From: Melioribacteraceae bacterium
Lineage (GTDB): Bacteria > Bacteroidota > Ignavibacteria > Ignavibacteriales > Melioribacteraceae
Assembly (NCBI GenBank): GCA_026417375.1
Contig: JAOADJ010000036.1
Span: forward strand, 186,001-250,000
DNA length: 64,000 nucleotides
Direction: 5' to 3'
The notes below the pieces were generated by a model, which saw only the letters and a list, made by a program, of their open reading frames with translations, was not told the DNA's origin and did not search any database. Position 1 is the stretch's first letter; each line of letters begins with the position of its first letter. The translations under genes were made by a program, and so were the position numbers. Positions 32,666 to 52,685 of the stretch are shown one piece after another.

Positions 32666-33982
32666 TTATGCTTTTACTACATTTATAAATCCTCTTTTGG
32701 CAAAAGCATTTCTGGTATCAACTATAAGTTGAGCATTTTTGTAAATCATTTCATAATCAAAATTATCGTGATCTGTTGATAATAATACTGCATCATAACT
32801 TTTTATAGTTTCCGGGGTAAGGTCAACGGATTTCATTTCAAAATTATACTTTCTTGTTGCCGGTAAAACTTTCACATAATTATCACTATATTCAACATCA
32901 GCTAATCGACTTTGTAGAATTTCAATCAACTTTAATGATGGTGATTCACGCATATCATCAATATTTTTTTTATATGAAGCTCCAAGAATTAATATTTTAC
33001 TTCCTTTTAATGTTTTACCATTTTTATCTAATGCTTCGGATAATTTTTGTACAACATAATATGGTTGATAAGTATTAATTTCTCCTGCTAATTCAATAAA
33101 CTTAGTATTTACATCATATTCTCTTGCTTTCCAGGTCAAATAAAATGGATCGATAGGAATACAATGCCCACCTAAACCTGGTCCAGGATAAAAAGCTTGA
33201 AATCCGAATGGTTTTGTTTTTGCAGCTTCAATAACTTCCCAAATATCAATTTCCATTTTATCAAATACCATTTTTAATTCATTAACTAAAGCAATATTAA
33301 TTGAACGATAAATGTTTTCTAAGAGTTTTGTTGCTTCAGCTGCTCTTGGTGACGATACTGGTACTGTTTTTATAATGACCTGATCATATAATTTTTGTGC
33401 TATTTCCAAACATGATGGCGTTACTCCACCAACTACTTTTGGAATTGTTGATGTCGAAAAATCAGGATTGTTCGGATCTTCTCTTTCCGGACTGAATGCT
33501 AAAAAGAAATCTTCTCCAACTTTTAATCCTTTTGCTTCAAATAAAGGTTGTAATATTTCTTCTGTAGTTCCCGGATAAGTTGATGATTCCAATGAAATAA
33601 ATTGTCCCGCTCTAATATATTCTGCAACTTGTTCTCCAGATTTTTCAATAAATGTTAAATCAGGTTCTCGATGATGATCAAGTGGTGTTGGAACACAAAT
33701 AATTATTGCATCACATATGCTTAATTTAGAAAAATCTGTTGTTGCAATAAAATTTTTAGTTTGAACAGCTTGAAAAATTTTTTCTTCAGAAATATGCTTA
33801 ATATAACTTTTACAATTCATTAAAATGGGAATTTTCTTTTCATCAATATCAAATCCAATTGTGTTAAATCCTTTTAGTACAAATTCTAAAGCTAAAGGTA
33901 ATCCTACATAACCAAGACCAATAATTCCAACAGTTGCAGATTTGTCTTCAATTTTTTTGAGAAGATTTTCTTTGTAATTCAT
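32666..33982 (-). CDS. wbpA: Nucleotide-sugar dehydrogenase (UDP-GlcNAc 6-dehydrogenase, WbpA/WecC family)
   Basis: 438 aa; VGIIGLGYVGLPLALEF, PTPLDHHREPDLTFI, SSTYPGTTEE, FYPGPGLGGHCIPIDPFYL. Confidence 0.9.
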   Translation of the reverse strand: MNYKENLLKKIEDKSATVGIIGLGYVGLPLALEFVLKGFNTIGFDIDEKKIPILMNCKSYIKHISEEKIFQAVQTKNFIATTDFSKLSICDAIIICVPTPLDHHREPDLTFIEKSGEQVAEYIRAGQFISLESSTYPGTTEEILQPLFEAKGLKVGEDFFLAFSPEREDPNNPDFSTSTIPKVVGGVTPSCLEIAQKLYDQVIIKTVPVSSPRAAEATKLLENIYRSINIALVNELKMVFDKMEIDIWEVIEAAKTKPFGFQAFYPGPGLGGHCIPIDPFYLTWKAREYDVNTKFIELAGEINTYQPYYVVQKLSEALDKNGKTLKGSKILILGASYKKNIDDMRESPSLKLIEILQSRLADVEYSDNYVKVLPATRKYNFEMKSVDLTPETIKSYDAVLLSTDHDNFDYEMIYKNAQLIVDTRNAFAKRGFINVVKA

Positions 33983-33991
33983 TATGCCCTC

Positions 33992-35173
33992 TTAATTTTG
34001 TTGAATAAATTTTTCAATGCAATTTACAACATAATTTATTTGTTCAAAAGTTAATTCGGGATAAATTGGTAAAGCCAAAGAATTTTCAGCAGCAAAATTC
34101 GAATGTGGAAAATTTTCATCCTTTTCATTTAAGAAAGTAAAACACTCTTGTCTGTGAAAAGGAACCGGATAATAAACTTCGCAACCAATTTCCTTTTCTT
34201 TTAAGAAATTCCATAGTTGATCTCTTTTTTCAACTCTAATAACATATTGGTTATAAATGTGATAATTTTTTACATTTAATTCAAAATCTTTGTAAACAGG
34301 TTTTGGAATTAAAACTTTATTCTTTTCATTGAAATTAATAATTCCTTCTCTTTCAGATAATCCTTTGTTTATAAAAAGTTGAGAATAAAGTTTTGCATTT
34401 TCTCTTCTTTTTGCAGACCAACCATCAAGATGAGGAAGTTTTACTCTTAATACAGCAGCTTGTAAAGTATCTATTCTAAAATTTCCACCAATATACTTAT
34501 GATAATATTTTGGTTCCATTCCGTGCATTCTTAACATTTTTAATTTCTTATAAAAATTTTCATCATTTGTTGTTACAATTCCGGCATCACCAAAACCACC
34601 AAGATTTTTACTTGGGAAGAATGAAAAACAACCAATATCACCAATTGAACCGACAAATCTACCATCTTTATATTGAACTCCTATTGCCTGTGCTGCATCT
34701 TCAATTACAAACAAATTATATTTTTTTGCAATCGAAATAATTTCATCCATTTCAGCACTTTGACCAAAAAGATGAACCGGAATAACTGCTTTTGTTTTTT
34801 TAGTAATTTTTCTTTCAAAATCTTTTGGGTCAATATTAAAAGTAATTGGATCAATATCAGTAAAAACTGGTTTTGCATTTAAACGTGCAACAACACCAGC
34901 AGTTGCAAAAAAAGAATATGTCGGCACAATTATTTCATCATCTGGTTTTATATCCAAAGCCATTAACGCTATTAACAATGCATCTGTACCTGAACTGACA
35001 CCAACTGAAAATTTTACATTTAGGTAATTTGAAATTTCTTCTTCCAACTTTGCAACATCTGGTCCGTTAATAAAATATTGTGAATCAACTACTCTTTGAA
35101 TTGCTTCATCAATTTCATTTTTTAATAATTGATATTGTGGCTTTAAATCTAACAAAGGAACTTTCATTTGCAC
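33992..35173 (-). CDS. wbpE: DegT/DnrJ/EryC1/StrS sugar aminotransferase (WbpE/PorR-like)
   Basis: 393 aa; VPLLDLKPQYQLLKNEID, FSVGVSSGTDALLIALMAL, VIEDAAQAIGVQYKDGRFVGSIGDIGCFSFFPSKNLGGFGDAG. Confidence 0.9.
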   Translation of the reverse strand: MQMKVPLLDLKPQYQLLKNEIDEAIQRVVDSQYFINGPDVAKLEEEISNYLNVKFSVGVSSGTDALLIALMALDIKPDDEIIVPTYSFFATAGVVARLNAKPVFTDIDPITFNIDPKDFERKITKKTKAVIPVHLFGQSAEMDEIISIAKKYNLFVIEDAAQAIGVQYKDGRFVGSIGDIGCFSFFPSKNLGGFGDAGIVTTNDENFYKKLKMLRMHGMEPKYYHKYIGGNFRIDTLQAAVLRVKLPHLDGWSAKRRENAKLYSQLFINKGLSEREGIINFNEKNKVLIPKPVYKDFELNVKNYHIYNQYVIRVEKRDQLWNFLKEKEIGCEVYYPVPFHRQECFTFLNEKDENFPHSNFAAENSLALPIYPELTFEQINYVVNCIEKFIQQN

Positions 35174-35291: not shown

Positions 35292-38200
35292 TTATTTCAT
35301 AAAAATCATCTTCCTTGTTTGAATGTATGAACCAGCTTTCAGTACATAAAAATAAACTCCACTTGATAAATATTTAGCATCAAATTTAATATTATAAACT
35401 CCCGGTCTTTGAAATTCATTAACCAATTTATAAACTTCTTTTCCAAGTATATCATATACTTTTAAGATTACATCACAAGAAATCGGAATTTGATATTTAA
35501 TTGTTGTTTCAGGATTAAATGGATTCGGGAAGTTTTGTTCCAATGAAAATTCAGTTGGAATTATTTTATCTTCTTTTTCAATATCAACTACTACATCATG
35601 AATCTTTGTAGGTGATTTTTGAGTATTTCCTACATTATCAGTAGCTAAAAGATAAATTTTATATGTATTATTATTTTGTACAGGAATTTTAATTGGAGAT
35701 TTATCACCAACAGCAGCAACAGAAAATGGACCATCAGCATTTGCTAAATATACAATAACGTTTTTTATTCCTGCTCCATTTCCATCATCTGCATTCCAAT
35801 AAACAGATAATTCATTACTTGATGATTTTACTATACTTGAAATATTTGATGTCGGTGAATCAAAATCTAAAGTGTTAATAGTTGTATTTGTAGATAAAGG
35901 TTTATTGATATCAAATGTTATGGTAGCTCTGTTTTTAATCACAGTTTTTGTCGGCAAATTTGATTTTAAATTAACTGTAAATTTTACCCAACCTTCTCCT
36001 TCTGGAGGTTTTGCGTTTGGTGGTAATTCAATTCCAACAAAATCCCATTTAAGAATATTACTATTTCTTGTTATTGTTGGTTTAGCTTGTGGGTGACTTG
36101 TTTCTAAAAATTTAACAGAGTTAATATCAAAAACATTTGTATCTAAAGTGTCTAAAATTACTATCTGATATGCAGGCGCAGTTGCTTCTTTTTTATTTTC
36201 AAAAAATATTGTGTAATTCATCGGTGATGTTGAAGCCATATATCCATTCTGACCAAAACCTGCTGGTCCCTCTTTAGCATTTGGATCCCATGATGTTACT
36301 TTTACTAATTCTTTTTCTTGTTTATCAAAATTTCCATTAACATAATCTTTCATTCCACGAACTGTGTTGCCTAAACAATCAAAAACATCTTTAGCTAAGT
36401 TAATTGGCCAAATTGCATAACCCGTAGTTTTTTTAATAACCTCTTCGGCTCCCTTTTTTGCAATTCCTTTTAGTCCATTTTCAACTGTTACAGCTTCCTT
36501 TAAACTATTTTTAATAACTTTTACAGAAGCATCAGTTAATGATTCATCGTGTCTTACAGGTCTCCACATTTCATAACAACCAGCAACAATTGTGTTTGAA
36601 ACATATTCTTCAACAATTGCTCCAACTGTCCATAATGCAATCGCAGTTAAAGTAATTGCTTCAGTTGATTTAAATGTAGTTCCAAGAGCGGATTTTACTA
36701 TAATGTCAAAACTTCTTACTTCTTTAGCAGCAAGTGGTTGTACTAATAAAATCACTTCATCTTTTTTATTGTCATAAACCAGAGAATCTATTGGTATCGT
36801 TTTAATTGAATCTGTTCCTATTTTTTTTGAATAAATAGCATCAAAATAAACACCTTGATTTGCATTTAATTTGATAAAAAATTTATCTGTTGGGAAATTA
36901 TTATTATTCCAATAAGAAATTGTGTATCGATTTGGTGGACCAACACGAACTTCTTTCCTTCCTGAAATTGAAACTGATATTGAAGGAACATTTGTAACAT
37001 TACCGGAGCTCAATATTATATCCCCAACCAAAGTAATTGGATTATTTGCTGTTCCGATTGTAATTTTTTTGTTAGTCAAATCTCTTTGTGTATTAATTGG
37101 GTTAGATATTTTTTTCCAACTAATACCATTGTCACTTGTAATATATGCTTCTAAAAAATTTGGATCTTGTCCGTTTAATACATTATCATCATAATATAAT
37201 TCAATTGTATAGCTATTTAATTTTTTATTTCCACTTAATTGCCAATATCTTGAAATTGATGAAGTCATTTTTGGGTGAATGAAATTACTAACAGTAACTA
37301 TCAGAGAATCTGATGTTGCTCTATCAATTACTTTAGGTTTTGCTTTCATAAAACTGTGATAATCAATTTCCCCATTAGAAAATATTCTGTACCTGTTTGT
37401 AATTTTTCCGTTGTTATTAACTGTTCCATTATTTTCTATCATTTTATAAACAATCAACTCTGCATTAGTATTTATATTAAGTGTTACATTGGTATTAATT
37501 AAAAATCTATTTCTGGTTTTAAGAAATTGGTCAATTGTGACATTAGCAAAACTTCCTCCTGATTTTTCTAAACTAATATTAGAATTTATTTCTCCAAAAA
37601 GTTTTAGATTATTGTTATTACTTTTAACAATAAGCCAGTTAATCTCAATTTTACCAAAGTTATAAACATTACCGAATGCTTGTATTTCAAGTCCGCCAAA
37701 CCGATTTTTAATTATTCCATTATTATAAATGTCACCATAAACATAAATTTTTCTTCCGGCGCAACATTCTTCCTGAACACATTTATCTTTTGCAATTCTT
37801 AAATTTTTATAAATAATATTTTCTCCAGTAAATAACATTGTATCTTTTCCTGTTAAAACAAATTCACCATCAAGGTTAGAACCAAATCTTCCTTTAACAT
37901 CAATTTCACCATTTGAAAATATTTTACCACCATTAAAAATTGAAGTTGAATTAACAAAATCCCTTTTTGATAATTTTGTTAGTTTATAAGAAAACATATT
38001 TAATTCATCATCAAATAGATTAAATGTTGTTGTAGAATCAATAACTAAATTTGAAGCTGCATTTATTTTACCATTAGGAACCTTTTCAATCCAAACACAA
38101 GAGTACTTTTGACTACCACTCATTGTTTGATTGTTATCTCCAATAAATCTAATTGCAGAACTAAATTCACCATTATTTATTACATTCCCTTTAATTTGAA

Positions 38201-39554
38201 CTATTAGACCTGCCCAACGATTTTTTATAATTCCATTGTTAGTTAGGTTTCCATTTATTGTTATTGTTCTACCAGCCGAAGGTTCATCTGAAATTATTTT
38301 ACCACTACCAATTGTTAAGTTTTGATTCACAATATTATCACCTGTAAAAAGTAATGGAGTTGTACCTACTAATGTTGGATTCCCATCTAAATGTGAACCA
38401 AATCTTCCACCAATTTCTAAAATACCATTTGATAAAACTGTACCACCTCGGATAATATTTCCGGAATTATCAATATCCTTTTTGGAAATTTTAGTTAACT
38501 TGAAATTTCCCATATTTAAAACATCATTATCTAAATAAAATGTTGTAGTGGAATCAATTGTTATATCAGAAGCAGCATTAATTTTTCCATTGGGATTTTT
38601 TTCAATCCAACCACAAGAATATTTTTGACTACCACTCATTGTTTGATTATCATTACCTATAAATCTCAGGTTTCCTGAATACTCACCATTATTAATTATA
38701 TTGCCTTTTACTTCAATGGTTAACCCTGCCCAACGATTTTTAATAATTCCATTATTTATAAGATTTCCATTTATAGTTATTGTTCTTCCAGCTGAAGGTT
38801 CATCTGAAATTATTTTGCCACTAGCAATAGTTAAATTTTGATTTATAATATTTCCACCTGTAAATAATAATGGAGTTGCTCCTACTAATGTTGGATTACC
38901 ATCTAAATTTGAACCAAATCTTCCACTAATATCTAATTCACCATTTGAAAAAACTGTTCCATAAATTATAATATCAGTTGCATTATCAATATTTTTTCTT
39001 GAATGTTTTGTCAATTTGAAACTACCCATATTTAAAATATCACCATTCAAATCAACAGTTGTTACAGAATCAATTTCAATATTACTTGCAGCTTGAATTG
39101 TACCGTTTGGTGATTTCGAAATATTGTAACAACTTATTTTCTTTGAACTGGTAATCTGTTGAGCACCAGAACCGCCAAATACAATTGCTCTATTAATCAA
39201 ATTACCATAATTAAATAAATTACCTCTTATATCTAAAGTTACTCCAGCATTTCCATTCCCTATTCTTATAGTACCATTATTTGTCAGGTTTCCATAAATA
39301 GTTAATGTTCTACCTGCTGAAGGTTCATCTTCAATAATTCCATTAGTATTAACTGTCAGGTTATTACATGACTGATTAGAAATTACAACAGGACCATTTA
39401 TTACAACATCATTATTTTGTCCTGGTACTACTCCACCTATCCATGTAGAAGCACTATTCCAATGACCACCATTAGTTGTTGAAGTTATTGTTTGTGAAAA
39501 GATAATTAATGGAGATAAAATGATTAGATTTAATATATACTTTAAAGTTTTCAT
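35292..39554 (-). CDS. Large secreted repeat protein with T9SS type A C-terminal sorting domain
   Basis: ATG at 39554 preceded by GGAGG (ORF track starts at 39599); signal peptide MKTLKYILNLIILSPLIIFSQ; C-terminus EFSLEQNFPNPFNPETTIKYQIP...YDILGKEVYKL...LSSGVYFYVLKAGSYIQTRKMIFMK. Confidence 0.9.
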   Translation of the reverse strand: MKTLKYILNLIILSPLIIFSQTITSTTNGGHWNSASTWIGGVVPGQNNDVVINGPVVISNQSCNNLTVNTNGIIEDEPSAGRTLTIYGNLTNNGTIRIGNGNAGVTLDIRGNLFNYGNLINRAIVFGGSGAQQITSSKKISCYNISKSPNGTIQAASNIEIDSVTTVDLNGDILNMGSFKLTKHSRKNIDNATDIIIYGTVFSNGELDISGRFGSNLDGNPTLVGATPLLFTGGNIINQNLTIASGKIISDEPSAGRTITINGNLINNGIIKNRWAGLTIEVKGNIINNGEYSGNLRFIGNDNQTMSGSQKYSCGWIEKNPNGKINAASDITIDSTTTFYLDNDVLNMGNFKLTKISKKDIDNSGNIIRGGTVLSNGILEIGGRFGSHLDGNPTLVGTTPLLFTGDNIVNQNLTIGSGKIISDEPSAGRTITINGNLTNNGIIKNRWAGLIVQIKGNVINNGEFSSAIRFIGDNNQTMSGSQKYSCVWIEKVPNGKINAASNLVIDSTTTFNLFDDELNMFSYKLTKLSKRDFVNSTSIFNGGKIFSNGEIDVKGRFGSNLDGEFVLTGKDTMLFTGENIIYKNLRIAKDKCVQEECCAGRKIYVYGDIYNNGIIKNRFGGLEIQAFGNVYNFGKIEINWLIVKSNNNNLKLFGEINSNISLEKSGGSFANVTIDQFLKTRNRFLINTNVTLNINTNAELIVYKMIENNGTVNNNGKITNRYRIFSNGEIDYHSFMKAKPKVIDRATSDSLIVTVSNFIHPKMTSSISRYWQLSGNKKLNSYTIELYYDDNVLNGQDPNFLEAYITSDNGISWKKISNPINTQRDLTNKKITIGTANNPITLVGDIILSSGNVTNVPSISVSISGRKEVRVGPPNRYTISYWNNNNFPTDKFFIKLNANQGVYFDAIYSKKIGTDSIKTIPIDSLVYDNKKDEVILLVQPLAAKEVRSFDIIVKSALGTTFKSTEAITLTAIALWTVGAIVEEYVSNTIVAGCYEMWRPVRHDESLTDASVKVIKNSLKEAVTVENGLKGIAKKGAEEVIKKTTGYAIWPINLAKDVFDCLGNTVRGMKDYVNGNFDKQEKELVKVTSWDPNAKEGPAGFGQNGYMASTSPMNYTIFFENKKEATAPAYQIVILDTLDTNVFDINSVKFLETSHPQAKPTITRNSNILKWDFVGIELPPNAKPPEGEGWVKFTVNLKSNLPTKTVIKNRATITFDINKPLSTNTTINTLDFDSPTSNISSIVKSSSNELSVYWNADDGNGAGIKNVIVYLANADGPFSVAAVGDKSPIKIPVQNNNTYKIYLLATDNVGNTQKSPTKIHDVVVDIEKEDKIIPTEFSLEQNFPNPFNPETTIKYQIPISCDVILKVYDILGKEVYKLVNEFQRPGVYNIKFDAKYLSSGVYFYVLKAGSYIQTRKMIFMK
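37700..39330 (-). repeat. Four tandem ~172-175 aa (516/516/525 bp) repeats inside the T9SS-type protein gene
   Basis: Ala codon of the (S/C)AGR anchor lies at 37758, 38274, 38790 and 39315; near-identical GRFGSxLDGNPTLVG.TPLLFTG..I.NQNLTI..GKIISDEPSAGRTITINGNLxNNGIIKNRWAGL in the central units. Confidence 0.9.
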
Positions 39555-39691
39555 AAATCCTCCAGCTTTTATTAAAGAACATAATTTATATTTTAACAAC
39601 TTCTAATAAACAGCATGAAAGGATATTAAGAATTAACTCGGTTTTAACTTAAGTATATTAAATAATATATCAAATTAATATTTGATAATTA

Positions 39692-40273
39692 TCACAGTTT
39701 TTTAACTGAACCATTTAGTAACATATATTTTTCCCCCGTTTTTTTGCAGATAGCATAGTTTTCGTTATTGAAAATTAATTTTTGACCTGCTTCACTAACC
39801 CAACCAATTATTTTTGCAGGATTACCAACTACTAAAGCATAATCAGGAATATCTTTTGTAACAACAGCCCCAGCTCCTATAAAAGCATACTTGCCAATTG
39901 AAACACCGCAAACAATAGTTGAATTTGCACCAAGAGTTGCACCTTCTTTGACAATTGTTTTAATGTAAAATTTACTACCAGATTGTGGGAATTTAGAACG
40001 TGGATCTTTTATGTTTGTAAATACTACGGAAGGACCACAAAAAACATAATCTTCTAAAATTACACCTTCATAAACAGAAACATTATTTTGTATTTTGACA
40101 TTATTACCAATGATAACATTATTTGCAATATTAACATTTTGTCCTAATACACAATTTTTACCGATCTTTGCCCCAGATTGAATGTGTGAAAAATGCCAAA
40201 TCTTTGTTCCTTCTCCTATTTCAACATTTTCATCAATGTAAGATGACTGATGAACAAAATATTTATTATTCAA
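39692..40273 (-). CDS. wbpD: Left-handed beta-helix N-acyltransferase (WbpD/WlbB-like)
   Basis: 193 aa; [60 protein letters not shown] hexapeptide repeats; FTNIKDPRS. Confidence 0.9.
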
Positions 40274-40283
40274 TTTATTTCCA

Positions 40284-41174
40284 TTATTTAGTTTTTAAAA
40301 ATTTAATTCTATTAACTAATTCAATTGATGGTCTAGCATCTTCAATTCCTAAACCGTTTCCATTTATAATTTCTTCATAAACTTTTGTGTGTAAATCCTG
40401 AAATCCTTCTGAAAATTCAATTTCTTCATTATCAATTATTAAACTTCTATAAGTTCTTTTATTTCCAGAAAAATTTTTTTTAAGTAAATCTTTTTCATCA
40501 ATTGACAAAAACCATTTTACAAATGCATTTTCAAATTCAATTTTTCCGGATGCTTTATTAATTTCATTTAAATTATTTTCGATAGAAATAACTTTACCGA
40601 ATAAAAATATCATTAAATCGAAAAGATGTATTCCAATGTTCATTATTAATCCACCAGATTTTGTATCATCACCTTTCCATGAATAAAAATACCAATTTCC
40701 TCTTGGAGTTATATAATTAAGTTCTACATTATATTTTTTGTTAAATGCTAATTGATTTTTGAGTTTCATTATTTGTGGGTGATATCTTAATTGCATTATT
40801 GTAAAAACTTTTTTACCTGTTTTTTCCTGCAACTTTTCAATTGAATCTAAATTATGCGGAAATAAAACTATTGGTTTTTCACAGATAGAATTTATTCCAT
40901 TGTTTAATGCTAAACGTATTTGTGTATCATGTAAATAATTTGGAGAACATATTGATAAAAATTCAATATCATTTCTTTTGGAAAGAAATCTTTCAAATCT
41001 TTCATACTGATAAAAATATTGTGAATTAGGAAAATAACTATCGAGAATTCCAACAGAATCATTAGGATCAAATGATGCAATTAAATTATTGTTAGTTTCT
41101 TTTATTGCTTTTAAATGCCTTGGAGCTATATAACCCCCAACACCAGTTATTGCAAAATTTAAATTTTCTTTCAT
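40284..41174 (-). CDS. wbpB: Gfo/Idh/MocA oxidoreductase (WbpB/WlbA-like UDP-GlcNAcA 3-dehydrogenase)
   Basis: 296 aa; [93 protein letters not shown]. Confidence 0.9.
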
Positions 41175-41182
41175 TTTATTAA

Positions 41183-44100
41183 CTATTCAACTTTAGCAAG
41201 TTTTCCAATTTTACTTATTACTTTATTATTTTTTTTAATAATTACTTTATAGAAATAAACTCCATTACCAATTTTATTTCCATCTTCATCTCTTCCATCC
41301 CAGTTTATTGTATTAAAATCATTTTTAAGAAAAGATGAATTTATTTTAATCTCTTTAATTTTTCTTCCAGCTATAGTATAAATTATTATTTTCAACTCAT
41401 CTGGTAGTGAAGTTAATTTAAATGTGAAGTCTGTTTTATCTTTCATTGGATTAGGATAATTAAAAACATTTAATACTTCCAATGAATTTTTTACTATAAA
41501 TTTTTTAATAATTCCACTTGAATCAATTAAATCGTTAGTAGCATTACGACCTACAACTTTTAAGATGTAATTTCCATCAACCAAAGTTGGTTGATAATTT
41601 ACAATTACTTTTGGATTTGAATTTGAGAAGTTAACAGATATTTGATTAGATAAGTATGAAATTCTTTTATTGTTTAAGAATATATCAATTTTGGAAGTAT
41701 CTTTAATTGGTACTAATGATTCATCATTTAATTTAATTTCAATTTTAGGATTTGATGAAACATAATCGCCATCGTAAATATCTACGCCATCAATAGTAAG
41801 AAATAGTTTTGCCGGTTTGTTATTTTTTTTGACATAGAAAGGAATTTTAAAGTTATTGTTATCTTCATAAATTTCTTTCACTTTATTTTCTTTATCAACA
41901 TAGATATTGAAATAATAGTCCCCATAATTTTTAGTTAGTAAATAATTAAATGAAATATTTTTTTTAGAATCTGCATGCAGAGAATCAATTAATTGTTCAA
42001 ATATTTTTTCTTTGTAATTTTTTGTTTCTATTTCGACAACTACATTAAAATTTTTTGCAGTTGTTTCACCAACATTGAAAATTTTTATTAATCCATTAAT
42101 ATTCTCACCAAGTTCAATTGAATCTTTTGATATTGAAACAGTTTGGTAATTTATTGCAAGTTCTGGTAAACAATTATAAGTAATTCTAATCGACTTAATA
42201 GTTGGTGAATTTAACAAAGAATCAGATATAAGCTCTGCCTGCAGCTTAATATAAGGAAATTTATTAGCATCAATTTTTGAAATATCAATGTCATTATTTT
42301 CAGTTGTAATAAGATTAAGAATCTTGCCATTATCATCTTTACCAATTATGTTAATATTTATTTTTGAATCATAATTCAATTTTTTATCTATTTCAATTCG
42401 TTTCCAAGAATCAACTGGTCCAATAAAATTTGTTTCAAACTTTCCTTGTTTTTGTTTTATAACAAAAGTTGTATCAACATAAATAAGTCCATCATAAGGA
42501 CCTTTTACAAATTCGATTACTTCTTTTGGATTAGCTCCTTTTTTACCAATTAATGCCCATGATCCTCTAAATTTTAGTTGATCAATTTTTGTACTTCCTA
42601 AAGTTTTAATTGCGTTTTTTAATTCAACAGTGATATTGTTAGCCGCATCATCACTTACTCCTAAAGCTACTATTTTTCCATAAGGAATTGAATTAATATA
42701 ATCACCAAGTTTTTTAACATTCGTAGGATTATTAAATAATTCATACCAGTTAGAGTAGTCTACATTGAAGGTTATAGGATCAAAAACAACTATTCCTATA
42801 CCAGCGAAATAAGAATTACTTAATAAATTAATTCCGTTTTTTGCAATAACACAAGTAGCTCCTGCTGACCAACCTGCAGATGTAATTGAAATATTTACTT
42901 TGCTGTCTTTGATTTTTATTCCATCACTTGCTAGATATGTATTATCATAAAATGTATTTGAAAATGAAATAGAATCATCATAAATAATATAATTCTTCTT
43001 AAACTTTTTAAATGATTTCGTTAGACTAAAATTACTATTAGGTAAATCAAGTTTATATCTTAACCAATATCTCTCTGAATTTATATCTGGAATTTTTATA
43101 AATGTCCTTAATGTATCTAGCATAATAATTTTTTCAGTTGTGTTTAAGAAATTAGGGTTCATTGATATTTGATATTTTAAAGATAATTTTTTTTCATTTG
43201 AGAATGTTGGATTTAATATTAGAATAGAATCTTCAACTGAATTTTCATTTTGAGTGATTAATAAATCTCTTACTTCAGTTGAATATACATTAATTTGATA
43301 AGTTAATTGGTTATCGTCTTCATAAATTTCATCAATTACATTTTTAGAGTCTAGCATTATCTTTATCTTATGATCACCAGGTTTGTTTTTAATATAAATC
43401 GAATAATCTAAGCTATCTAAATATTTTGGTAATGGGATTTTTTTGATAATTGTATTTTCTAATTTGTTCATGTAAATGTGTTCAAGAGAAATATCGATAC
43501 TATCATCTTTTGTTTGACCATAATTTTTAATAATTATTTTTAATGATAATGAATCTTTATTAGAAGTAGGATTAATGACATTTAACTTAATATCATTATT
43601 AGAGATAACTAAATTTGGTTTTGGTGGTATAGGAATTTTTATAATTGGATCACCAATTAATGTATTCGTCAATGAAAATATTTTTGTTGAATAATTGTTA
43701 CCAGCATTACTAAACATTTTTGCTTTTGCTTTTAATATTGCATTACCAACTTCAAAATTATTAGTAACCAATAAATTTTCGTAAAAATATTTTGGAACAG
43801 TATAAGCTGTGGAAGTAAAACCTAATGAAGAATTTCCGATGTAACCAATTGCTTGTCCATTTTTATTTAATATAAATCTTTCACCAAAACATGAAATATC
43901 TGGTTCAGCAAATTTATTAGTCGAACATCCGAAATCAGTAATTAAAGGATTTTTATTGTAATTATTTGTTAACTGGTCAACTTCATTTATACTATTATCC
44001 CAAGTTGATGTACCGCTGTGTCCTATATATGAAATAAATAAGCCACCTTTTCTAATTTTTGTTGAAATTTCGTCAGTAGAATAAGGACCAAAATCAGTTT

Positions 44101-46498
44101 GTGGGTTTGTAGTTTTATAAAAATGAGAATAAATACCAGCTATTGGAGGTGGTTCAATATAATTTTTAATAATGAAATCGTTGATACTTTTAAGATTATT
44201 TATTTGATTTATATCATTAGAAGGACCTCCGGAAAAAAATAAGTAACTTTTATTAAATTCATCGTATTTAGAAAACAAAATATTCTTTACTTTTGATAAA
44301 TAATTATTTAATTCGAAAATATTATTAATAGGTAATCTACCAATTTTTAACTGAGGTATTGTAATAATATTATCCCAAACTACATACCAATTGTCACTCA
44401 CAGGATAACCGTATGATGGAATATAATTTCTTCCTCCTTTTACTCCTGTAGCTTTATAGAAATAATCTTTATAATCATAATTTGCATCACCAATTAAAAT
44501 TGTGTATGAAGGTTTTGGAATTTTTCGTTTTTGAAAAGTAGTAAATAAAAATAATCGTATTGAACTTGGATCTGGGTAACCAAACGAGAATTCGTCGAAA
44601 ATATCTTCTACATTAAAAAGCTCCGTTTTAATATTATAAAGATTGGATATTTGATTTACGTATTCTTTGGCACTGTTTACAAAATTATTATGAGTGATTG
44701 CAATATAATCTACTTGTTCAGTTTTGTCTCGTAGATTTGCAAAATTTTTATAAGAAATAAATTTTGGTTTAAATAAATTATTTATAGATATGACAATATA
44801 TTTATCATTTGCTTTTACAGTATCAGAAAATATTAAATTATTATTATTGATAGAGTAATTACTTATAAGTTTAAAATTATCATGATATTTAATTATTACA
44901 TATTCTTGATTTTTAGTATTCTCTATTTTTATTGTTTTAACAGAAGATTTCACATCACTATAAATTTGAAACAAAAGCTTATCATTTTCCATTTTCAATT
45001 TACGAGGATATTCATACTCATACCAATCAACTGCAATAGTATTAATTGATGTTCCATTATTATAATTTTTAACCGATAAAATGTTATTAGTTGATTTTAA
45101 TAAATTTACATTTAATTTACCTTTCAATAAAACTTGATCATATCTATTAATTGAAATAGAATCTAATAAATAATTATTTACTCTTAATGTAAGATTATGT
45201 GCATTAATAATTTGATTAGAACCGCCACTTGAACCTTTAAAATAAAAATATGCTTCTTTGTTTGGTATCAAATCGATTGCATTGAAATTATAATTTCTTA
45301 CTGTCCCAGAATATAACCATTGAGATTGATGGAAGTACCATGTTTTATTTCCCAAATAATTAGGCATTTGATTTTGTAATTCATCATTATTTGCAAAGAA
45401 AAGAACTTGATTATCTTCAATATGGTTAAAAGATTTGTAATAGTTTATAGTATCGTTTGATATTAAAACACTATTTGACTTGGGGATTCTTAACCCATTA
45501 TTTTTACCCCATGTTAGAAAGAAATAAGTTGTGTCTGTGAAGCGATTCATAAATTCATTGTATTCTTCATTTTTTGAATTTGTTATTCTATAATCTTTTC
45601 GTGAGTAATTTTTTTTACCATAAAATATTAAGTAATCTGAATCAGAAAAATAATTTTCATCTTTTCCATAAAATAAAACAGGTACTTCTTTTCCAGATTC
45701 AAATAGTTGAAATGTTTTTGGAATGATTAATGAAGTATTAACACCTAGTGAATCTAAATCCTTCTTCCCTATTTTAAAAATTCCATCTTCATATGTCGCT
45801 ATTTTTACATATTGCATATTGTAATCGATCCAATTACCTGTTGAATCATTAAGAAAATTGTTTTTTGAATTTTCAAAGTGACTAAATCCTAAATTTTCAA
45901 TTATTGAAAAATCGTGTAAATCAATCTTTGGGTTTAAGGTTGCATTGTTTTCATAATTTTCATCAAAATGTATTTTTAATTTGACATTTTTTCTTTCAAT
46001 TATTGAAGCATCATTTGCATTGAAATAGTGTGTGTTAATTTTAATTATTATACAATAATTTCCTCTATACCAACCGTAACCAATAATATCATAAATTTTG
46101 TTATCAGAGATATTTTTGAAATTATTTTCTATATAATTTTCTTTTTCTATTAATGTTGAGTCATTAAATTTTTCTAAAATAGGATTTAATAAAGGAATGG
46201 ATTTTTCATTTTTAACCTCATCATAAGATAATACTGATATTTTTGGTTTAGAATAAGGAGGAATTGCGATTAGCATTACTTTAGAAGGTAATTTTATATT
46301 TTCTTCATTTGTAGGATTTGTATAATCATAATAATCTATAATTTTATATTGACCATATTCTTTAATATTAAAATTATATTTATCATTTAACACTGATATA
46401 ATAAAACCATTTTCAACTTTCTCAATTTTATTTTGTCCAATTATATATAAAGAAAAATTGAATGTAATAAATAATAAATAAATAAATTTATTATTCAT
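41183..46498 (-). CDS. C25 (gingipain/PorU-family) peptidase with ILEI/FAM3-like domain, CARDB-like repeats and T9SS/FlgD-like C-terminus
   Basis: 1771 aa; ILIGDANYDYKDYF, SYIGHSGTSTWDNS (His) and LITDFGCSTNKF (Cys) motifs; C-terminal VFNYPNPMKDKTDFTFKL...NTINWDGRDEDGNKIGNGVYFYKVI. Confidence 0.88.
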   Translation of the reverse strand: MNNKFIYLLFITFNFSLYIIGQNKIEKVENGFIISVLNDKYNFNIKEYGQYKIIDYYDYTNPTNEENIKLPSKVMLIAIPPYSKPKISVLSYDEVKNEKSIPLLNPILEKFNDSTLIEKENYIENNFKNISDNKIYDIIGYGWYRGNYCIIIKINTHYFNANDASIIERKNVKLKIHFDENYENNATLNPKIDLHDFSIIENLGFSHFENSKNNFLNDSTGNWIDYNMQYVKIATYEDGIFKIGKKDLDSLGVNTSLIIPKTFQLFESGKEVPVLFYGKDENYFSDSDYLIFYGKKNYSRKDYRITNSKNEEYNEFMNRFTDTTYFFLTWGKNNGLRIPKSNSVLISNDTINYYKSFNHIEDNQVLFFANNDELQNQMPNYLGNKTWYFHQSQWLYSGTVRNYNFNAIDLIPNKEAYFYFKGSSGGSNQIINAHNLTLRVNNYLLDSISINRYDQVLLKGKLNVNLLKSTNNILSVKNYNNGTSINTIAVDWYEYEYPRKLKMENDKLLFQIYSDVKSSVKTIKIENTKNQEYVIIKYHDNFKLISNYSINNNNLIFSDTVKANDKYIVISINNLFKPKFISYKNFANLRDKTEQVDYIAITHNNFVNSAKEYVNQISNLYNIKTELFNVEDIFDEFSFGYPDPSSIRLFLFTTFQKRKIPKPSYTILIGDANYDYKDYFYKATGVKGGRNYIPSYGYPVSDNWYVVWDNIITIPQLKIGRLPINNIFELNNYLSKVKNILFSKYDEFNKSYLFFSGGPSNDINQINNLKSINDFIIKNYIEPPPIAGIYSHFYKTTNPQTDFGPYSTDEISTKIRKGGLFISYIGHSGTSTWDNSINEVDQLTNNYNKNPLITDFGCSTNKFAEPDISCFGERFILNKNGQAIGYIGNSSLGFTSTAYTVPKYFYENLLVTNNFEVGNAILKAKAKMFSNAGNNYSTKIFSLTNTLIGDPIIKIPIPPKPNLVISNNDIKLNVINPTSNKDSLSLKIIIKNYGQTKDDSIDISLEHIYMNKLENTIIKKIPLPKYLDSLDYSIYIKNKPGDHKIKIMLDSKNVIDEIYEDDNQLTYQINVYSTEVRDLLITQNENSVEDSILILNPTFSNEKKLSLKYQISMNPNFLNTTEKIIMLDTLRTFIKIPDINSERYWLRYKLDLPNSNFSLTKSFKKFKKNYIIYDDSISFSNTFYDNTYLASDGIKIKDSKVNISITSAGWSAGATCVIAKNGINLLSNSYFAGIGIVVFDPITFNVDYSNWYELFNNPTNVKKLGDYINSIPYGKIVALGVSDDAANNITVELKNAIKTLGSTKIDQLKFRGSWALIGKKGANPKEVIEFVKGPYDGLIYVDTTFVIKQKQGKFETNFIGPVDSWKRIEIDKKLNYDSKININIIGKDDNGKILNLITTENNDIDISKIDANKFPYIKLQAELISDSLLNSPTIKSIRITYNCLPELAINYQTVSISKDSIELGENINGLIKIFNVGETTAKNFNVVVEIETKNYKEKIFEQLIDSLHADSKKNISFNYLLTKNYGDYYFNIYVDKENKVKEIYEDNNNFKIPFYVKKNNKPAKLFLTIDGVDIYDGDYVSSNPKIEIKLNDESLVPIKDTSKIDIFLNNKRISYLSNQISVNFSNSNPKVIVNYQPTLVDGNYILKVVGRNATNDLIDSSGIIKKFIVKNSLEVLNVFNYPNPMKDKTDFTFKLTSLPDELKIIIYTIAGRKIKEIKINSSFLKNDFNTINWDGRDEDGNKIGNGVYFYKVIIKKNNKVISKIGKLAKVE

Positions 46499-46499
46499 G

Positions 46500-47246
46500 T
46501 TAACGACCTGTCCTTGAATTGAAAAACTTATATTTTATGATTCTAAAAATAAACATAGGAATACCAATAAAATACCTTTTCCAGAGACGTCGAGGTTCAT
46601 GAAGTAATCTGACAATCCATTCCAGTCCAATCGATTGGACAAATTTGAAACCTCTTTTTTTTATTCCGGCAAAAACTTTAATTCCTTCACCAACTGCAAT
46701 AATTACTTTAGTATTTAATTTATCTTTGTTTTTAATAATCCATTCTTCTTGTTTTGGTGAACCTAATCCAACAATCAGAATATCTGGATTTGATTTATTT
46801 ATTTGATTAAGCAAATCTTCTAAATAATAATTAAATCCATTACAACTTCCAGCTATTTTTAAATGCGGTTGCACTTTAGGAATTCTACTCAGAGTCTCAT
46901 CAGTATCACCAAAGAAAAAAAATGACCAATTATTTATTAATGATTCTTTTATTAGATCAATATAAAAGTCGGAACCTGTAATTCTTTTCTTAAAACCATT
47001 TTTATTATATAAAAACTTTGAAGCTAAAAAGACACCAATGCCATCGGGATGAATAATATCATACTTATTTAATACCTCTGCAAATTTTATATCCTTTAAT
47101 GCTAAGTTAATTGTATTGATATTTGCATACGAAATTATAATTTGTTTTAATTCTGTTAAAGCATTCATTATCAAATTAATGATTTCATTATAATCAACGT
47201 TACATATTTTTATTATCTGAATATCTATTTTATTAAAATTTATCAT
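46500..47246 (-). CDS. WecG/TagA/CpsF-family glycosyltransferase
   Basis: 248 aa; HPDGIGVFLASKFL, RITGSDFYIDLI, ILIVGLGSPKQEEWIIKN, GLEWIVRLLHEPRRLWKRYFIG. Confidence 0.93.
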   Translation of the reverse strand: MINFNKIDIQIIKICNVDYNEIINLIMNALTELKQIIISYANINTINLALKDIKFAEVLNKYDIIHPDGIGVFLASKFLYNKNGFKKRITGSDFYIDLIKESLINNWSFFFFGDTDETLSRIPKVQPHLKIAGSCNGFNYYLEDLLNQINKSNPDILIVGLGSPKQEEWIIKNKDKLNTKVIIAVGEGIKVFAGIKKRGFKFVQSIGLEWIVRLLHEPRRLWKRYFIGIPMFIFRIIKYKFFNSRTGR

Positions 47247-48327
47247 TTAGACTTAAATATAAATTTTGGTACTTAAATATGAAGTTTTTAACAGTATAAT
47301 ATTTTGAAATTTTACAATACAAATTTTCTGCTAATTGATTAGCAAAATTTTTATTATTAATAATTATTTGGATTTTATTTTTCAAATCATCAGAATTTCC
47401 TGATTCAAAAAGCAACCCATCTTTTTCATTTTCAATTAACTCTGGAATGCCATCAACATTACTACCAATTAATGGCTTTTTCATTAGTCCAGCTTCAATC
47501 ATAACAAGTGGAAATGGATCAATTCTAGATGGAAGCACAAACACTTCAATAAGTTGATAATAATTAAAAACATCTTTTTGTGAATTTATCAATTTCGAAT
47601 TTAATTTATTTTGTGCGATAAACTCTTTGATTTTATATTCATCTTTTCCATTACCAATTAATAATAAAAATAAATCCTTATGAACTTTACTTAAATTAAG
47701 AAATGCTTCCAATAAAATATCAATTCCCTTTTCTTTAAAATCTAAACGACCAAAAAATCCTATAACAAATTTGTTCGTAGGAATTTCAAGCATTCTCAAC
47801 AATTCAGTTTTTGTTTTGGTGAACACGACTTCCGTCGGATCAACACAATTGTAAATAACTTTTATTTTATATCCATCAATATTATAGTTTTTAATCAAAT
47901 GAATTTTAATAGTATTACTACAAGCAATCAATAAATCAGATTTATAACTGATTAACTTATAATCATAAACTTTACTATGAACCGAAGTAACAGTTTTAAT
48001 TTTGAGCAACCGTGAAATTAAAAAAGCAAGTAGACCAAAATAACGATGATGCGAATGAATGATATTGATTTGGTTTTGTTTGCAAAATGAATAAATTTTA
48101 ATACAATGTATTACAAAACCGAAGACTGAATTATTGTGTTTTTTTAGAATAATAGGTTTAATATTTATTGATTCAAATCTGGAAAACCCATCGCCACCAA
48201 AGCACAAAATATGATGTTTGAATTGTGATGGAGTATTTTTAGCAATCAGGTAAATTGTTTTAGAAACCCCACATGAAAGATTTATGTTAGTTTGAAGATG
48301 AAGAATATTTATTTCTTTCTCACTCAC
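47233..48327 (-). CDS. Glycosyltransferase family 4
   Basis: 364 aa; IIHSHHRYFGLLAF, VIGFFGRLDFKEKGIDILLEAF, PSRIDPFPLVMIEAGLMKKPLIGSNVDGIPELI. Confidence 0.9.
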   Translation of the reverse strand: MSEKEINILHLQTNINLSCGVSKTIYLIAKNTPSQFKHHILCFGGDGFSRFESINIKPIILKKHNNSVFGFVIHCIKIYSFCKQNQINIIHSHHRYFGLLAFLISRLLKIKTVTSVHSKVYDYKLISYKSDLLIACSNTIKIHLIKNYNIDGYKIKVIYNCVDPTEVVFTKTKTELLRMLEIPTNKFVIGFFGRLDFKEKGIDILLEAFLNLSKVHKDLFLLLIGNGKDEYKIKEFIAQNKLNSKLINSQKDVFNYYQLIEVFVLPSRIDPFPLVMIEAGLMKKPLIGSNVDGIPELIENEKDGLLFESGNSDDLKNKIQIIINNKNFANQLAENLYCKISKYYTVKNFIFKYQNLYLSLNDKF

Positions 48328-49285
48328 TTATAATACCCAAGATTTTATTGAACTCTTTTTGAATATTATTCTTGTTCAACAATCTTTCAATCTGATATTC
48401 AAGTCTTAATCTTATACGTTTATCTTTCAAGTAATCAATAAATTTTTCAGGTAAATAAGAAAGAAGAAAAATAATTAAAAGTTTTATACTCCATTTTTTT
48501 AGCCTAGCATCAATCCAATATTTTCTAGCTTTGTTTTTCTCACCATAAAAAAATTCGCGCCAACCTTTTAATATTAATTGCTCATTTGACGAAGTTATAC
48601 CAAAGAGTTCATCCAATTTATCAAAGTATGGTTTTTGAATTTCATAAATCAAATGTTTCTTTTTCATAGTCTCAGTTGTACTTAAAGAATTTTTTCTTAG
48701 ACGTTGAAAGTAAAGAACTTCGGGTACAATTATAATATTACTTTTATTAAGGATTTTAAGCCACAAATCGTAATCTTCAAATGCGGACAATTCAGTGTTA
48801 AAACCTCCATTATCAAGAATAAAATTTCTGTCAAATAATACTGAGAGTCCCAAATGTCCATGTAATGCTATTTTTCTTTTAATAATATTTAAATCGTTTT
48901 GAATTATTAATTGATATAAAATTTTATTTCTATTGAAAAATGCTGAATTGGTAAAAACTAAATCATTTTTATTTTTATAAAGTAAAAGCTGCTTTTGAAT
49001 TTTTTGATGGTGAATAATATCATCAGCATCACAAAAAGAAATGAAATCATATTTCGCTTCTTTTAATCCAAGATTTAAAGCAGCACTTCTTCCAATATGA
49101 TTTGATTTAATGAATCTAATTCTCTTATCATCAAATCTTTTAACAACTTGCTCACTTTTATCTGTAGAGCCGTCATCAATAATCAGTAATTCAAAATCTT
49201 TATAAGTCTGTTTTAACACGCTATTGATTGCCTGTGAAATATATTCGCCGCAGTTGTAAGTTGTCATTAAAACTGTTATGCTCAT
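48320..49285 (-). CDS. Glycosyltransferase family 2
   Basis: 321 aa; SITVLMTTYNCGEYISQAINSVLKQTYKDFELLIIDDGSTDKSE, FCDADDIIHHQKIQKQL. Confidence 0.93.
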   Translation of the reverse strand: MSITVLMTTYNCGEYISQAINSVLKQTYKDFELLIIDDGSTDKSEQVVKRFDDKRIRFIKSNHIGRSAALNLGLKEAKYDFISFCDADDIIHHQKIQKQLLLYKNKNDLVFTNSAFFNRNKILYQLIIQNDLNIIKRKIALHGHLGLSVLFDRNFILDNGGFNTELSAFEDYDLWLKILNKSNIIIVPEVLYFQRLRKNSLSTTETMKKKHLIYEIQKPYFDKLDELFGITSSNEQLILKGWREFFYGEKNKARKYWIDARLKKWSIKLLIIFLLSYLPEKFIDYLKDKRIRLRLEYQIERLLNKNNIQKEFNKILGIISE

Positions 49286-50340
49286 TTCAAAATTTCTTTA
49301 TAGAATGAGATTGTATTCCTAACCATATTATTTATATTGAACTCCTTACTAGCATCCTGATAACCACTCTCAATTATTTCATTCATATCCTTAAAATTTT
49401 CTACAGCAAAATTTAATTTACTGGCTAAATCATTAGGATCATTTTCATCAAAAATTAGGCAATTAATTTTGTCTTTCAGAATGGAATCGTGTCCCAAAAA
49501 ATTTGAACTTAATATCAGGTTTTTATTTAATGCCGCTTCAATAATTGTCATTGGAAAACCTTCCGACTTACTTGCAGTCACAAAAATATTCGTCATTACC
49601 AATTGAGTATTTAAATCTTTTACTTCACCAATAAAATTTATACTTACGTTTAATTTTGCTAGAAGCTTTTTTAATTCAAATTCATAATCACCTTTACCAG
49701 CAATTAAAAATTCTGCTTTTGTTAAAGTTTCTTTTTTTAATTTACTAATTGCTTCAATAAAAATATCAAAGCCCTTTTCTGGAATTAACCTTCCCGCTGA
49801 GATGATCTTTAATGTTTGATTGATTGGTTTAATTAAATTTGTAGGGACAGGAATTCCACTTCTTATAAGCCTTACATTTTTTGACTGTTTGTTTTTTTGG
49901 TTTATCAGATAATAATAAATATGCTCATTAACGGTAATAAAGTATTCCGAAGGATAATGATTAAGTCTTCCAACAGATTCTATAATTCCGTGAACTGTTT
50001 GTAAAGTTTTTACCTTAATAAAATAGCTGACAAGTTTTGCAATATTAGAAGCATAATGGTTATGTGAGTGAATTATTTGGTATTTATACTTAATTAATAA
50101 TTTGAATAAAAATAAAAACGCTTTTATAAAATTTTTTGCAGATCTATTTTCATGCTTAACTGCAGGGTTAATAATAACTTCTTTACATAAATCTTTATAA
50201 ATATCCACAGCATCTCCACCAGCGCAAAGAATTGTGAACTCAACATCATTTCTCTTTTTCGCTTCTGATAAGAAATACAATAAGTGTTTTGAAACACCGC
50301 AGGTAGTAAGAAGTTCGTTAGTGATAATTAATGTTTTCAA
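49282..50340 (-). CDS. Glycosyltransferase family 4
   Basis: 352 aa; IIHSHNHYASNIA, ISAGRLIPEKGFDIFIEAI, TASKSEGFPMTIIEAALNKN. Confidence 0.9.
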   Translation of the reverse strand: MKTLIITNELLTTCGVSKHLLYFLSEAKKRNDVEFTILCAGGDAVDIYKDLCKEVIINPAVKHENRSAKNFIKAFLFLFKLLIKYKYQIIHSHNHYASNIAKLVSYFIKVKTLQTVHGIIESVGRLNHYPSEYFITVNEHIYYYLINQKNKQSKNVRLIRSGIPVPTNLIKPINQTLKIISAGRLIPEKGFDIFIEAISKLKKETLTKAEFLIAGKGDYEFELKKLLAKLNVSINFIGEVKDLNTQLVMTNIFVTASKSEGFPMTIIEAALNKNLILSSNFLGHDSILKDKINCLIFDENDPNDLASKLNFAVENFKDMNEIIESGYQDASKEFNINNMVRNTISFYKEILK

Positions 50341-50374
50341 AGGATAATAAATTATATTTTTATAAATTAAACAT

Positions 50375-51595
50375 TTAATTTAAGTATATTTTAAAGTACT
50401 CAGTAACCATTTGTCTAGTGGAATAGTTTTGTTCCAATAGATTATGATCTGTCTTTATCGCTTGATTACAAACATGAATAATTGATTTGGCGATCCCCAT
50501 TTGACTAAGTTCTTTAATGAACAAACCATTCACCCCATCTTTTATAATCTCTCTATTTCCACCTTCATTTGATACTAACACTTTAATTCCGCTTGCTAAT
50601 GCTTCAAGCACCACTAGATCAAATATTACTCTTTCAGATGCCTGGATAAAAATATCAAGAGATTTCATTAATCTTATTACATCATCATTCGAAATCATTC
50701 CTAAAAATTTTACTTGTTCACTTAAAAGATTTGCGTTAATTAGTGATTTATAATCTTCTGTAAGGTAACCTTCCCCAATGTTTACTAGAAGTGCTCTGAT
50801 ATTAAATTCATCACGTAATGATTTAATAGAACGAATTATTAAATCTATATTCTTTGGTTTAACATGCTGAGCAACATTAAGTAGTGTTATATCATATTTA
50901 TTTTTTTGAATATTATATTTTTCTAAAACATTATTTACCTCAATATTCCTGATCTTCTCTAAATCAATCCCATTGCAAATAATTTTAATCCTCTCCGACT
51001 TAGTATCGTTAAAATTGACATCTTTTAGAAAAATTTCTTTAGCAGCATTACTAGGAAATGTTATTAAATCAAAATTTAAAAATGCATCCATTTCCCTTTT
51101 GCTTAACTCGAGCATAAAATCCTTAAAGTAATTTGATTTTACATTACATTCCTTCATTTCACTAACCTGCATTCCTTTTGAGTGTATCGTCAATATTTTT
51201 TTCGGTTTTTTAAGATTAAGGAAATAATATGCCGAAAGTGAATCGTGCGAATGAATAATATCAAAGTCTCTAAACTTATCTGTATAATTATAAAAATATT
51301 TATCTTTTTTATGGTAATGGTATTTTAAATAGAAATCGCTTGTAACTATATCTCTATATAAATTTATTTTATCATATAATTTATAACCTAAATTTCTTTT
51401 AGCATAAATGTTTTTATTTTGATTCAAATCCAATTCTTCCCCAGACGAATATTTTTTGAACATATCATATGAAAGGAAATACGGTTCATATTTAGTATAA
51501 TCAAGATTCTTTAGTAAATCATATATAATCCGGTTCGGTCCGCCGATCGAAGGATTTGGAAAACCAGTAAAAGATGTGAATAAGATTTTTTTCAT
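50375..51595 (-). CDS. Glycosyltransferase family 4
   Basis: 406 aa; NPSIGGPNRIIYDLLKNL, FDIIHSHDSLSAYYFL, QASERVIFDLVVLEALASGIKVLVSNEGGNREII. Confidence 0.9.
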   Translation of the reverse strand: MKKILFTSFTGFPNPSIGGPNRIIYDLLKNLDYTKYEPYFLSYDMFKKYSSGEELDLNQNKNIYAKRNLGYKLYDKINLYRDIVTSDFYLKYHYHKKDKYFYNYTDKFRDFDIIHSHDSLSAYYFLNLKKPKKILTIHSKGMQVSEMKECNVKSNYFKDFMLELSKREMDAFLNFDLITFPSNAAKEIFLKDVNFNDTKSERIKIICNGIDLEKIRNIEVNNVLEKYNIQKNKYDITLLNVAQHVKPKNIDLIIRSIKSLRDEFNIRALLVNIGEGYLTEDYKSLINANLLSEQVKFLGMISNDDVIRLMKSLDIFIQASERVIFDLVVLEALASGIKVLVSNEGGNREIIKDGVNGLFIKELSQMGIAKSIIHVCNQAIKTDHNLLEQNYSTRQMVTEYFKIYLN

Positions 51596-51596
51596 T

Positions 51597-52685
51597 TTAG
51601 AATCTCTTCAATATAGTAAGCGAATTCGCTACCACTTGATCCATATTATAATACTGATATTCAGCTAATCTTCCACAAAAAATAACATTGGATAATTTTT
51701 CGGATTCCATTTTATATAAATGATATTGATGTTTATTCTCTTCATTTGGGATTGGATAAAAAGGCTCGCCATCAAAGATTGGATATTCATAACTTAATGA
51801 AGTTGATTTAGATTTTTGAAACGTTAAATGTTTGTATTCACTTACACGTGTATAATTTTTTGTATTATCCACGTAGTTATAAACTGCAGTTTTTTGTTTA
51901 AATTCGATTAGAAAAATCTTAAACTCAAACCTGATCGATCGATAAGGAAGTTTGCCAAATTTATAATCAAAAAAGTAATCTATGGGACCTGTGTAAATTA
52001 ATTTATCATAATTAACATCATTAATAATTTTTTTGAAATCTGTATTCAAAATAATCTCAATGTTTTTATGCTTTAACATCCTTTCGAACATTTTAGTATA
52101 ACCATCTTTTGGCATAAACTGATATTTATCAGTAAAATAACGACAATCATCATTTGTTCTAATTGGAATTCTTCCACATACACTTGGTGATAATTCTTTA
52201 GGCTCTAAATTCCATTGTTTTTTTGTATAATATTTATAAAATTTTTCAAACAAATCATATCCAACTTGATTTACTATAATATCTTCAGAATTTAAAATTG
52301 GATAACGATTTTCTTTTTTACTCTCAAAATATTTCTTTGCATCTTCTTCAGTAAAATCTTTATTATATAATTTTGATAATGTAATTCTATTTATTGGAAT
52401 TGGATAAAGTTCATTATTATGAAAAGCTAAAACTTTATGTTCATAAGGAATCCATTCTGTAAATTGTGAAAGATAATCAAATACTTCTTTGCTATTTGTA
52501 TGAAAAATATGTGGACCATATTTATGAATTAAAATTCCATATTCATCATATTCATCATATGCGTTTCCTCCGATATGATTCCTTTTCTCTACTATTAATA
52601 TTTTTTTATTCATTTGTGATGCTAATCTTTCTGCAAGAACAGAACCAGCAAAACCGGCACCTACAATTAAGTAATCATATTTCAT
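51597..52685 (-). CDS. glf: UDP-galactopyranose mutase
   Basis: 362 aa; DYLIVGAGFAGSVLAERLA, HIGGNAYDEYDEYGILIHKYGPHIFHTN, YTKKQWNLEPKELSPSVCGRIPIRTNDDCRYF. Confidence 0.96.
   Translation of the reverse strand: MKYDYLIVGAGFAGSVLAERLASQMNKKILIVEKRNHIGGNAYDEYDEYGILIHKYGPHIFHTNSKEVFDYLSQFTEWIPYEHKVLAFHNNELYPIPINRITLSKLYNKDFTEEDAKKYFESKKENRYPILNSEDIIVNQVGYDLFEKFYKYYTKKQWNLEPKELSPSVCGRIPIRTNDDCRYFTDKYQFMPKDGYTKMFERMLKHKNIEIILNTDFKKIINDVNYDKLIYTGPIDYFFDYKFGKLPYRSIRFEFKIFLIEFKQKTAVYNYVDNTKNYTRVSEYKHLTFQKSKSTSLSYEYPIFDGEPFYPIPNEENKHQYHLYKMESEKLSNVIFCGRLAEYQYYNMDQVVANSLTILKRF

Follow-up and report, generated by a model that had tools for sequence, protein, structure and literature searches.

Our analysis reveals that residues 1205 to 1345 (approximately; 42464..42886) of a 1771-aa protein form a true ILEI/FAM3/POMGnT1-stem domain of the ILEI/GG superfamily. 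The open reading frame (41183-46498), found in the window, i.e., the whole 64,000-nucleotide stretch of DNA that was analysed, encodes the ILEI peptide quoted in the initial annotation; it lies on the minus strand, as do all the window features described below. Judged by its sequence, the protein is more than a generic C25 peptidase, namely a second T9SS sortase paralogue, of the PorU2-like kind. The initial annotation had placed a FAM3/ILEI pattern inside a bacterial C25 peptidase protein. The former assignment is borne out by both profile and fold, and the latter holds (PF01364, E 2e-56) in the refined form just given. The neighbouring polysaccharide-making genes, taken together with the FAM3/POMGnT1 fold, suggest that the enzyme grips a polysaccharide while attaching proteins to it. 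We propose, by analogy with known systems, a PorU2-like sortase dedicated to its locus, whose ILEI domain would hold the acceptor glycan, and we give this reading an even chance of being right.

The Pfam ILEI model (PF15711) matched residues 1233-1322 (42533-42802) with 79.3 bits against a cut-off of 27 (E 3.1e-22), covering profile positions 2-90 of 90. A single-sequence search of the PDB with the segment returned FAM3B (1.4e-8), FAM3C (6e-8), FAM3A (1e-4), TMEM2 (2e-4), and POMGnT1 (3e-4). With a profile of 31 relatives, these values improved to 3e-22 for FAM3C, 4e-22 for FAM3B, 1.4e-19 for POMGnT1, 4e-18 for FAM3A, and 2.5e-15 for TMEM2, the next match following only at E 0.026. The AlphaFold2 model of the domain was of moderate confidence (mean pLDDT 66, pTM 0.72). 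It gave 21 Foldseek matches at E<=0.001 (5e-8 to 8e-5), all of them POMGnT1, FAM3, or TMEM2, and the best were to the POMGnT1 stem (PDB 5ggj). Another fold for this segment is ruled out, as no non-ILEI Foldseek match fell under E 0.5, and no rival beta-sandwich family emerged from the comparison. By genome search, the domain is single-copy in the host. The protein itself is not a FAM3 cytokine, i.e., a small stand-alone secreted protein, since the domain sits inside a long C25 chain. A GG domain common to phage tail fibres and FAM3 has been described previously (PMC3742443), and phage proteins gave weak matches to ILEI in our searches.

When the whole chain was compared with NCBIfam, PorU2 was the best family (391 bits), followed by PorU (288 bits). 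The curated cut-offs are 450 bits for PorU2 (NF052324) and 420 bits for a full-length match to PorU (NF033707), so that the protein lies under both; since the PorU2 cut-off is not reached, though this family scores best, we call the protein PorU2-like only. The C25 catalytic domain (residues 598-954; 43637..44707) matched PF01364 with 192 bits against a cut-off of 23. Within it, His827 (44018..44020) and Cys858 (43925..43927) align with the active-site positions held by His and Cys in PorU and gingipain R, and both are invariant in 55/55 aligned proteins; the catalytic role of the aligned His is established. CARDB was matched by Pfam in two stretches, the best at residues 1445-1550. At the C-terminus is a T9SS sorting domain (residues 1688-1771; 41186..41437), recognized by TIGR04183 with 35 bits against a cut-off of 23 in a genome search that returned 69 matches. 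Pfam places FlgD_ig at residues 1688-1752, and the region aligns with the C-terminus of PorU from Porphyromonas gingivalis (6za2). The protein is predicted to be located outside the cell. The AlphaFold model of its C-terminal half was of low confidence (pLDDT 60, pTM 0.35) and was left out of the argument.

The host is an Ignavibacteriota genome near Stygiobacter electus, with 88% identity over the segment, and it holds two C25 proteins. The other one is a canonical PorU (986-987 bits), encoded by a separate gene elsewhere with a PorV-family gene adjoining it. One PorZ is present on the same contig, again elsewhere. The window protein is collinear with 15 canonical PorU proteins at both ends, and the ILEI domain lies, together with CARDB, inside an extra stretch of about 550 residues (~1001-1550; 41849..43498). 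Alignment occupancy in these insert columns is 0-0.34 in the 15 canonical PorU proteins vs 0.8-1.0 on both flanks, and profile search found no ILEI in canonical PorU proteins. A tree sets canonical PorU apart from the rest with a support of 0.98; as a monophyletic clade, the ILEI group received a support of only 0.285. Besides these two, a third group of PorU-like paralogues (L140-L145, ~1900 aa) has a repetitive segment of ~250 residues in the ILEI slot. This segment is propeller-like as judged by eye only, contains no ILEI detectable by profiles, and gave no match to PDB sequences. A DegT aminotransferase gene lies near most of these paralogues, L140 having a GlmS-like gene as well.

The initial annotation had also pointed to a neighbouring polysaccharide locus, and here the comparison goes further: the association is conserved and not a local coincidence. 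Directly upstream of the sortase gene lies a WecG/TagA/CpsF glycosyltransferase gene (46500..47246), the sole copy in the genome; genes for four glycosyltransferases, a UDP-galactopyranose mutase, and a Wzx-type flippase (47233..53931) are upstream as well. Directly downstream are a WbpD-like acetyltransferase and a WbpB-like dehydrogenase (39692..41174), and beyond them a WbpA-like dehydrogenase and a WbpE-like aminotransferase (32666..35173), all four named by Pfam families only. Between the WbpE-like and WbpD-like genes, within the polysaccharide locus, a 1435-aa T9SS cargo protein with DUF7619 and a sorting domain is encoded (35292..39599). Among 51 homologous loci, WecG was found within 7.5 kb in 33 and a related glycosyltransferase in 37; 0/14 canonical PorU loci had any reference glycan gene. 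WecG is present in 27 of the 30 ILEI-bearing genomes of the order, usually as a single copy, and lies <8 kb from the ILEI match in 25 of the 27 genomes having both. Genomes of the order without an ILEI match had WecG in 2 of 10 cases (Fisher p 8e-5 for the co-occurrence, without correction for relatedness), and one of these two (G386) carries a contig-truncated PorU2-like gene beside WecG. In several loci, proteins with T9SS signals are encoded close to the sortase gene. A link to the Wbp linking sugar was dropped as main evidence, because WbpB and WbpD directly beside the sortase gene recur only in L004 and L048.

The PorU of P. gingivalis cleaves the C-terminal domain of its cargo and attaches the cargo to A-LPS, which is bound by PorZ and presented by it to PorU (PMC8545088); the Wbp/Vim pathway supplies the linking sugar (PMC7468200). 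From these analogies, we infer the sortase activity, the acceptor, and the sugar binding of the present protein. The PorU2-like surface sortase would be exported via its own C-terminal domain. Cys858 and His827 would then cleave cargo proteins at their C-terminal signal, as in P. gingivalis PorU, and the new C-terminus would be joined to an amino-sugar in the polysaccharide that the WecG/Wzx locus produces, in the way PorU uses A-LPS. Within the insert, the ILEI domain may bind a HexNAc-type sugar, as the POMGnT1 stem does, and could thereby present the acceptor glycan to the active site, for which P. gingivalis employs the separate PorZ. Fold and synteny favor such a glycan-binding role.

The weakest point of this proposal is the sugar site. 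The columns that we take to be those of R129, D179, and R207 of POMGnT1 were assigned by profile alignment to 5ggj and by counting residues along the human sequence. On the alignment of relatives and the 5ggj profile alignment, D1283 (42650..42652) and R1311 (42566..42568) are the counterparts of D179 and R207, and at A1232 (42803..42805), the counterpart of R129, the sugar contact is lost. Thus, the window protein keeps two of the three contacts (Ala, Asp, Arg). In POMGnT1, it is R129, D179, and R207 that the stem uses to bind beta-GlcNAc, and GlcNAc is among the sugars bound by FAM3A and FAM3C (PMC9802357). With the triad incomplete here and the full R-D-R set present in 16 of 55 relatives, we do not class the domain as a POMGnT1-type lectin site.

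This incompleteness, in the window copy and in most relatives, fits another reading, in which the protein would still be a PorU2-like sortase and its ILEI domain would act as a spacer or as a docking site for PorV-type barrels, cargo, or the attachment complex. The domain would then bind no glycan, and the link to the polysaccharide would run via the sortase substrate only. PorV2 directly upstream of the sortase gene in two distant relatives (L080 and L085), and a conserved, barrel-like, secreted protein of ~450 aa encoded after it in about a dozen loci, agree with this reading. Against it stand the sugars bound by the POMGnT1 stem, FAM3A, and FAM3C (PMC9802357) and the retention of the D179 equivalent in 35/55 and of the R207 equivalent in 39/55 relatives. 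We consider it possible but rather unlikely. Beside the window gene, no PorV2 was found among the annotated neighbors, and that stretch of the genome gave no PorV-family match.

The C25 fold, the same dyad as in gingipain R, and a T9SS signal would also be expected if the protein were a gingipain-like peptidase, secreted to break down glycoproteins outside the cell, with ILEI as an accessory domain for substrate binding. However, the C25 profile built from the relatives found P. gingivalis PorU (6za2) as its best PDB match (9e-35, gingipain R 5e-24), the chain follows PorU at both ends, and a conserved place beside polysaccharide synthesis genes is unexpected for a digestive enzyme; this explanation appears improbable. 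Even less credible is a protein that is no longer a sortase and instead acts directly on the glycan, in polysaccharide assembly or modification, because, despite the glycosyltransferase and flippase genes adjoining in most loci of the order, the catalytic His and Cys are maintained without exception, and the protein is predicted to be extracellular, whereas such enzymes work in the cytoplasm or in the inner membrane.

C25 proteins with an ILEI domain are widespread. In a phylum-wide sample of 396 genomes, ILEI was present in 101, with few exceptions in open frames of ~1500-1950 aa; chance or a one-off fusion is ruled out, as the architecture recurs across the phylum. All of the 50-odd fetched ILEI loci encode C25 proteins except L039 (L039:10845-12602), where a 585-aa protein combines ILEI with a phosphatidylserine decarboxylase-like domain. 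PorU2-model matches at 300-450 bits had ILEI within 2.6 kb in 61 of 63 cases. Most of the highest-scoring PorU2 proteins were missed by the Pfam ILEI model; a custom profile detected diverged ILEI (E<1e-3) in PorU2-sized frames of many genomes with high-scoring PorU2 and gave no match at all in some high-scoring PorU2 families. C25-ILEI genes are duplicated in tandem in L066:7215-18091 and L082:7395-17996, and a single 2399-aa frame in L038 has two ILEI matches. The ~450-aa secreted protein encoded after the C25-ILEI gene (L041:5944-7299 and homologues) belongs to no Pfam family and is called barrel-like from its C-terminal Phe and repeated strands.

ILEI outside animals, the Pfam model matching here, and the names PorU2 and PorV2 given by NCBI were already known. 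In the literature, covered in part, we found no report joining ILEI with PorU2 or noting the WecG association, no paper naming 'PorU2', and none that links FAM3 with Bacteroidetes and domain architecture. A broader generalization can be offered tentatively, as something possible rather than probable. Besides PorU, the Bacteroidota may have sortase paralogues with an exchangeable glycan-recognition module in the slot after the catalytic domain (ILEI, or the repetitive propeller-like segment in the third group, some members of which lie beside amino-sugar genes), each paralogue serving one polysaccharide locus of its own. A single chain would then combine the functions of PorU and PorZ, and the sugar-binding domain of animal FAM3/POMGnT1 would have a bacterial counterpart in protein-to-glycan conjugation. 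If so, ILEI/FAM3-type domains, poorly understood in animals, would gain a concrete and widespread bacterial setting, namely the holding of a surface glycan for a sortase. Furthermore, many Bacteroidota would possess two or more T9SS attachment systems with a separate polysaccharide for each, and the gene pair of sortase and WecG/TagA would offer a handle on them.

Among known systems, PorU2 (NF052324), a putative T9SS sortase with the partner PorV2 (NF052325), gives the highest score of any family with the N-terminal part and the catalytic part of our protein. The two are further alike in the PorV2 genes adjoining the sortase in the two distant relatives and in the diverged ILEI of many strong PorU2 proteins. 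In contrast, the window protein stays under the PorU2 cut-off, has no PorV2 neighbor, and belongs to a polysaccharide locus, with WecG beside it. P. gingivalis PorU (6za2) shares the C25 domain with its His/Cys dyad, the C-terminal domain, and the collinear ends, but has neither the insert nor ILEI. The POMGnT1 stem (5ggj) has the same fold and, among the sugar contacts, the Asp and the second Arg in common with the window copy; it differs in the residue that is Ala here and in being part of a glycosyltransferase instead of a sortase. FAM3A/B/C (PANDER/ILEI) and the GG domain of TMEM2 correspond in fold and sequence profile, the FAM3 proteins being small, stand-alone, and secreted in animals, unlike a domain within a large bacterial enzyme. 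Finally, PorZ of P. gingivalis would share with the ILEI domain the proposed job of presenting a glycan to the sortase, although it does so as a separate protein built of two beta-propellers.
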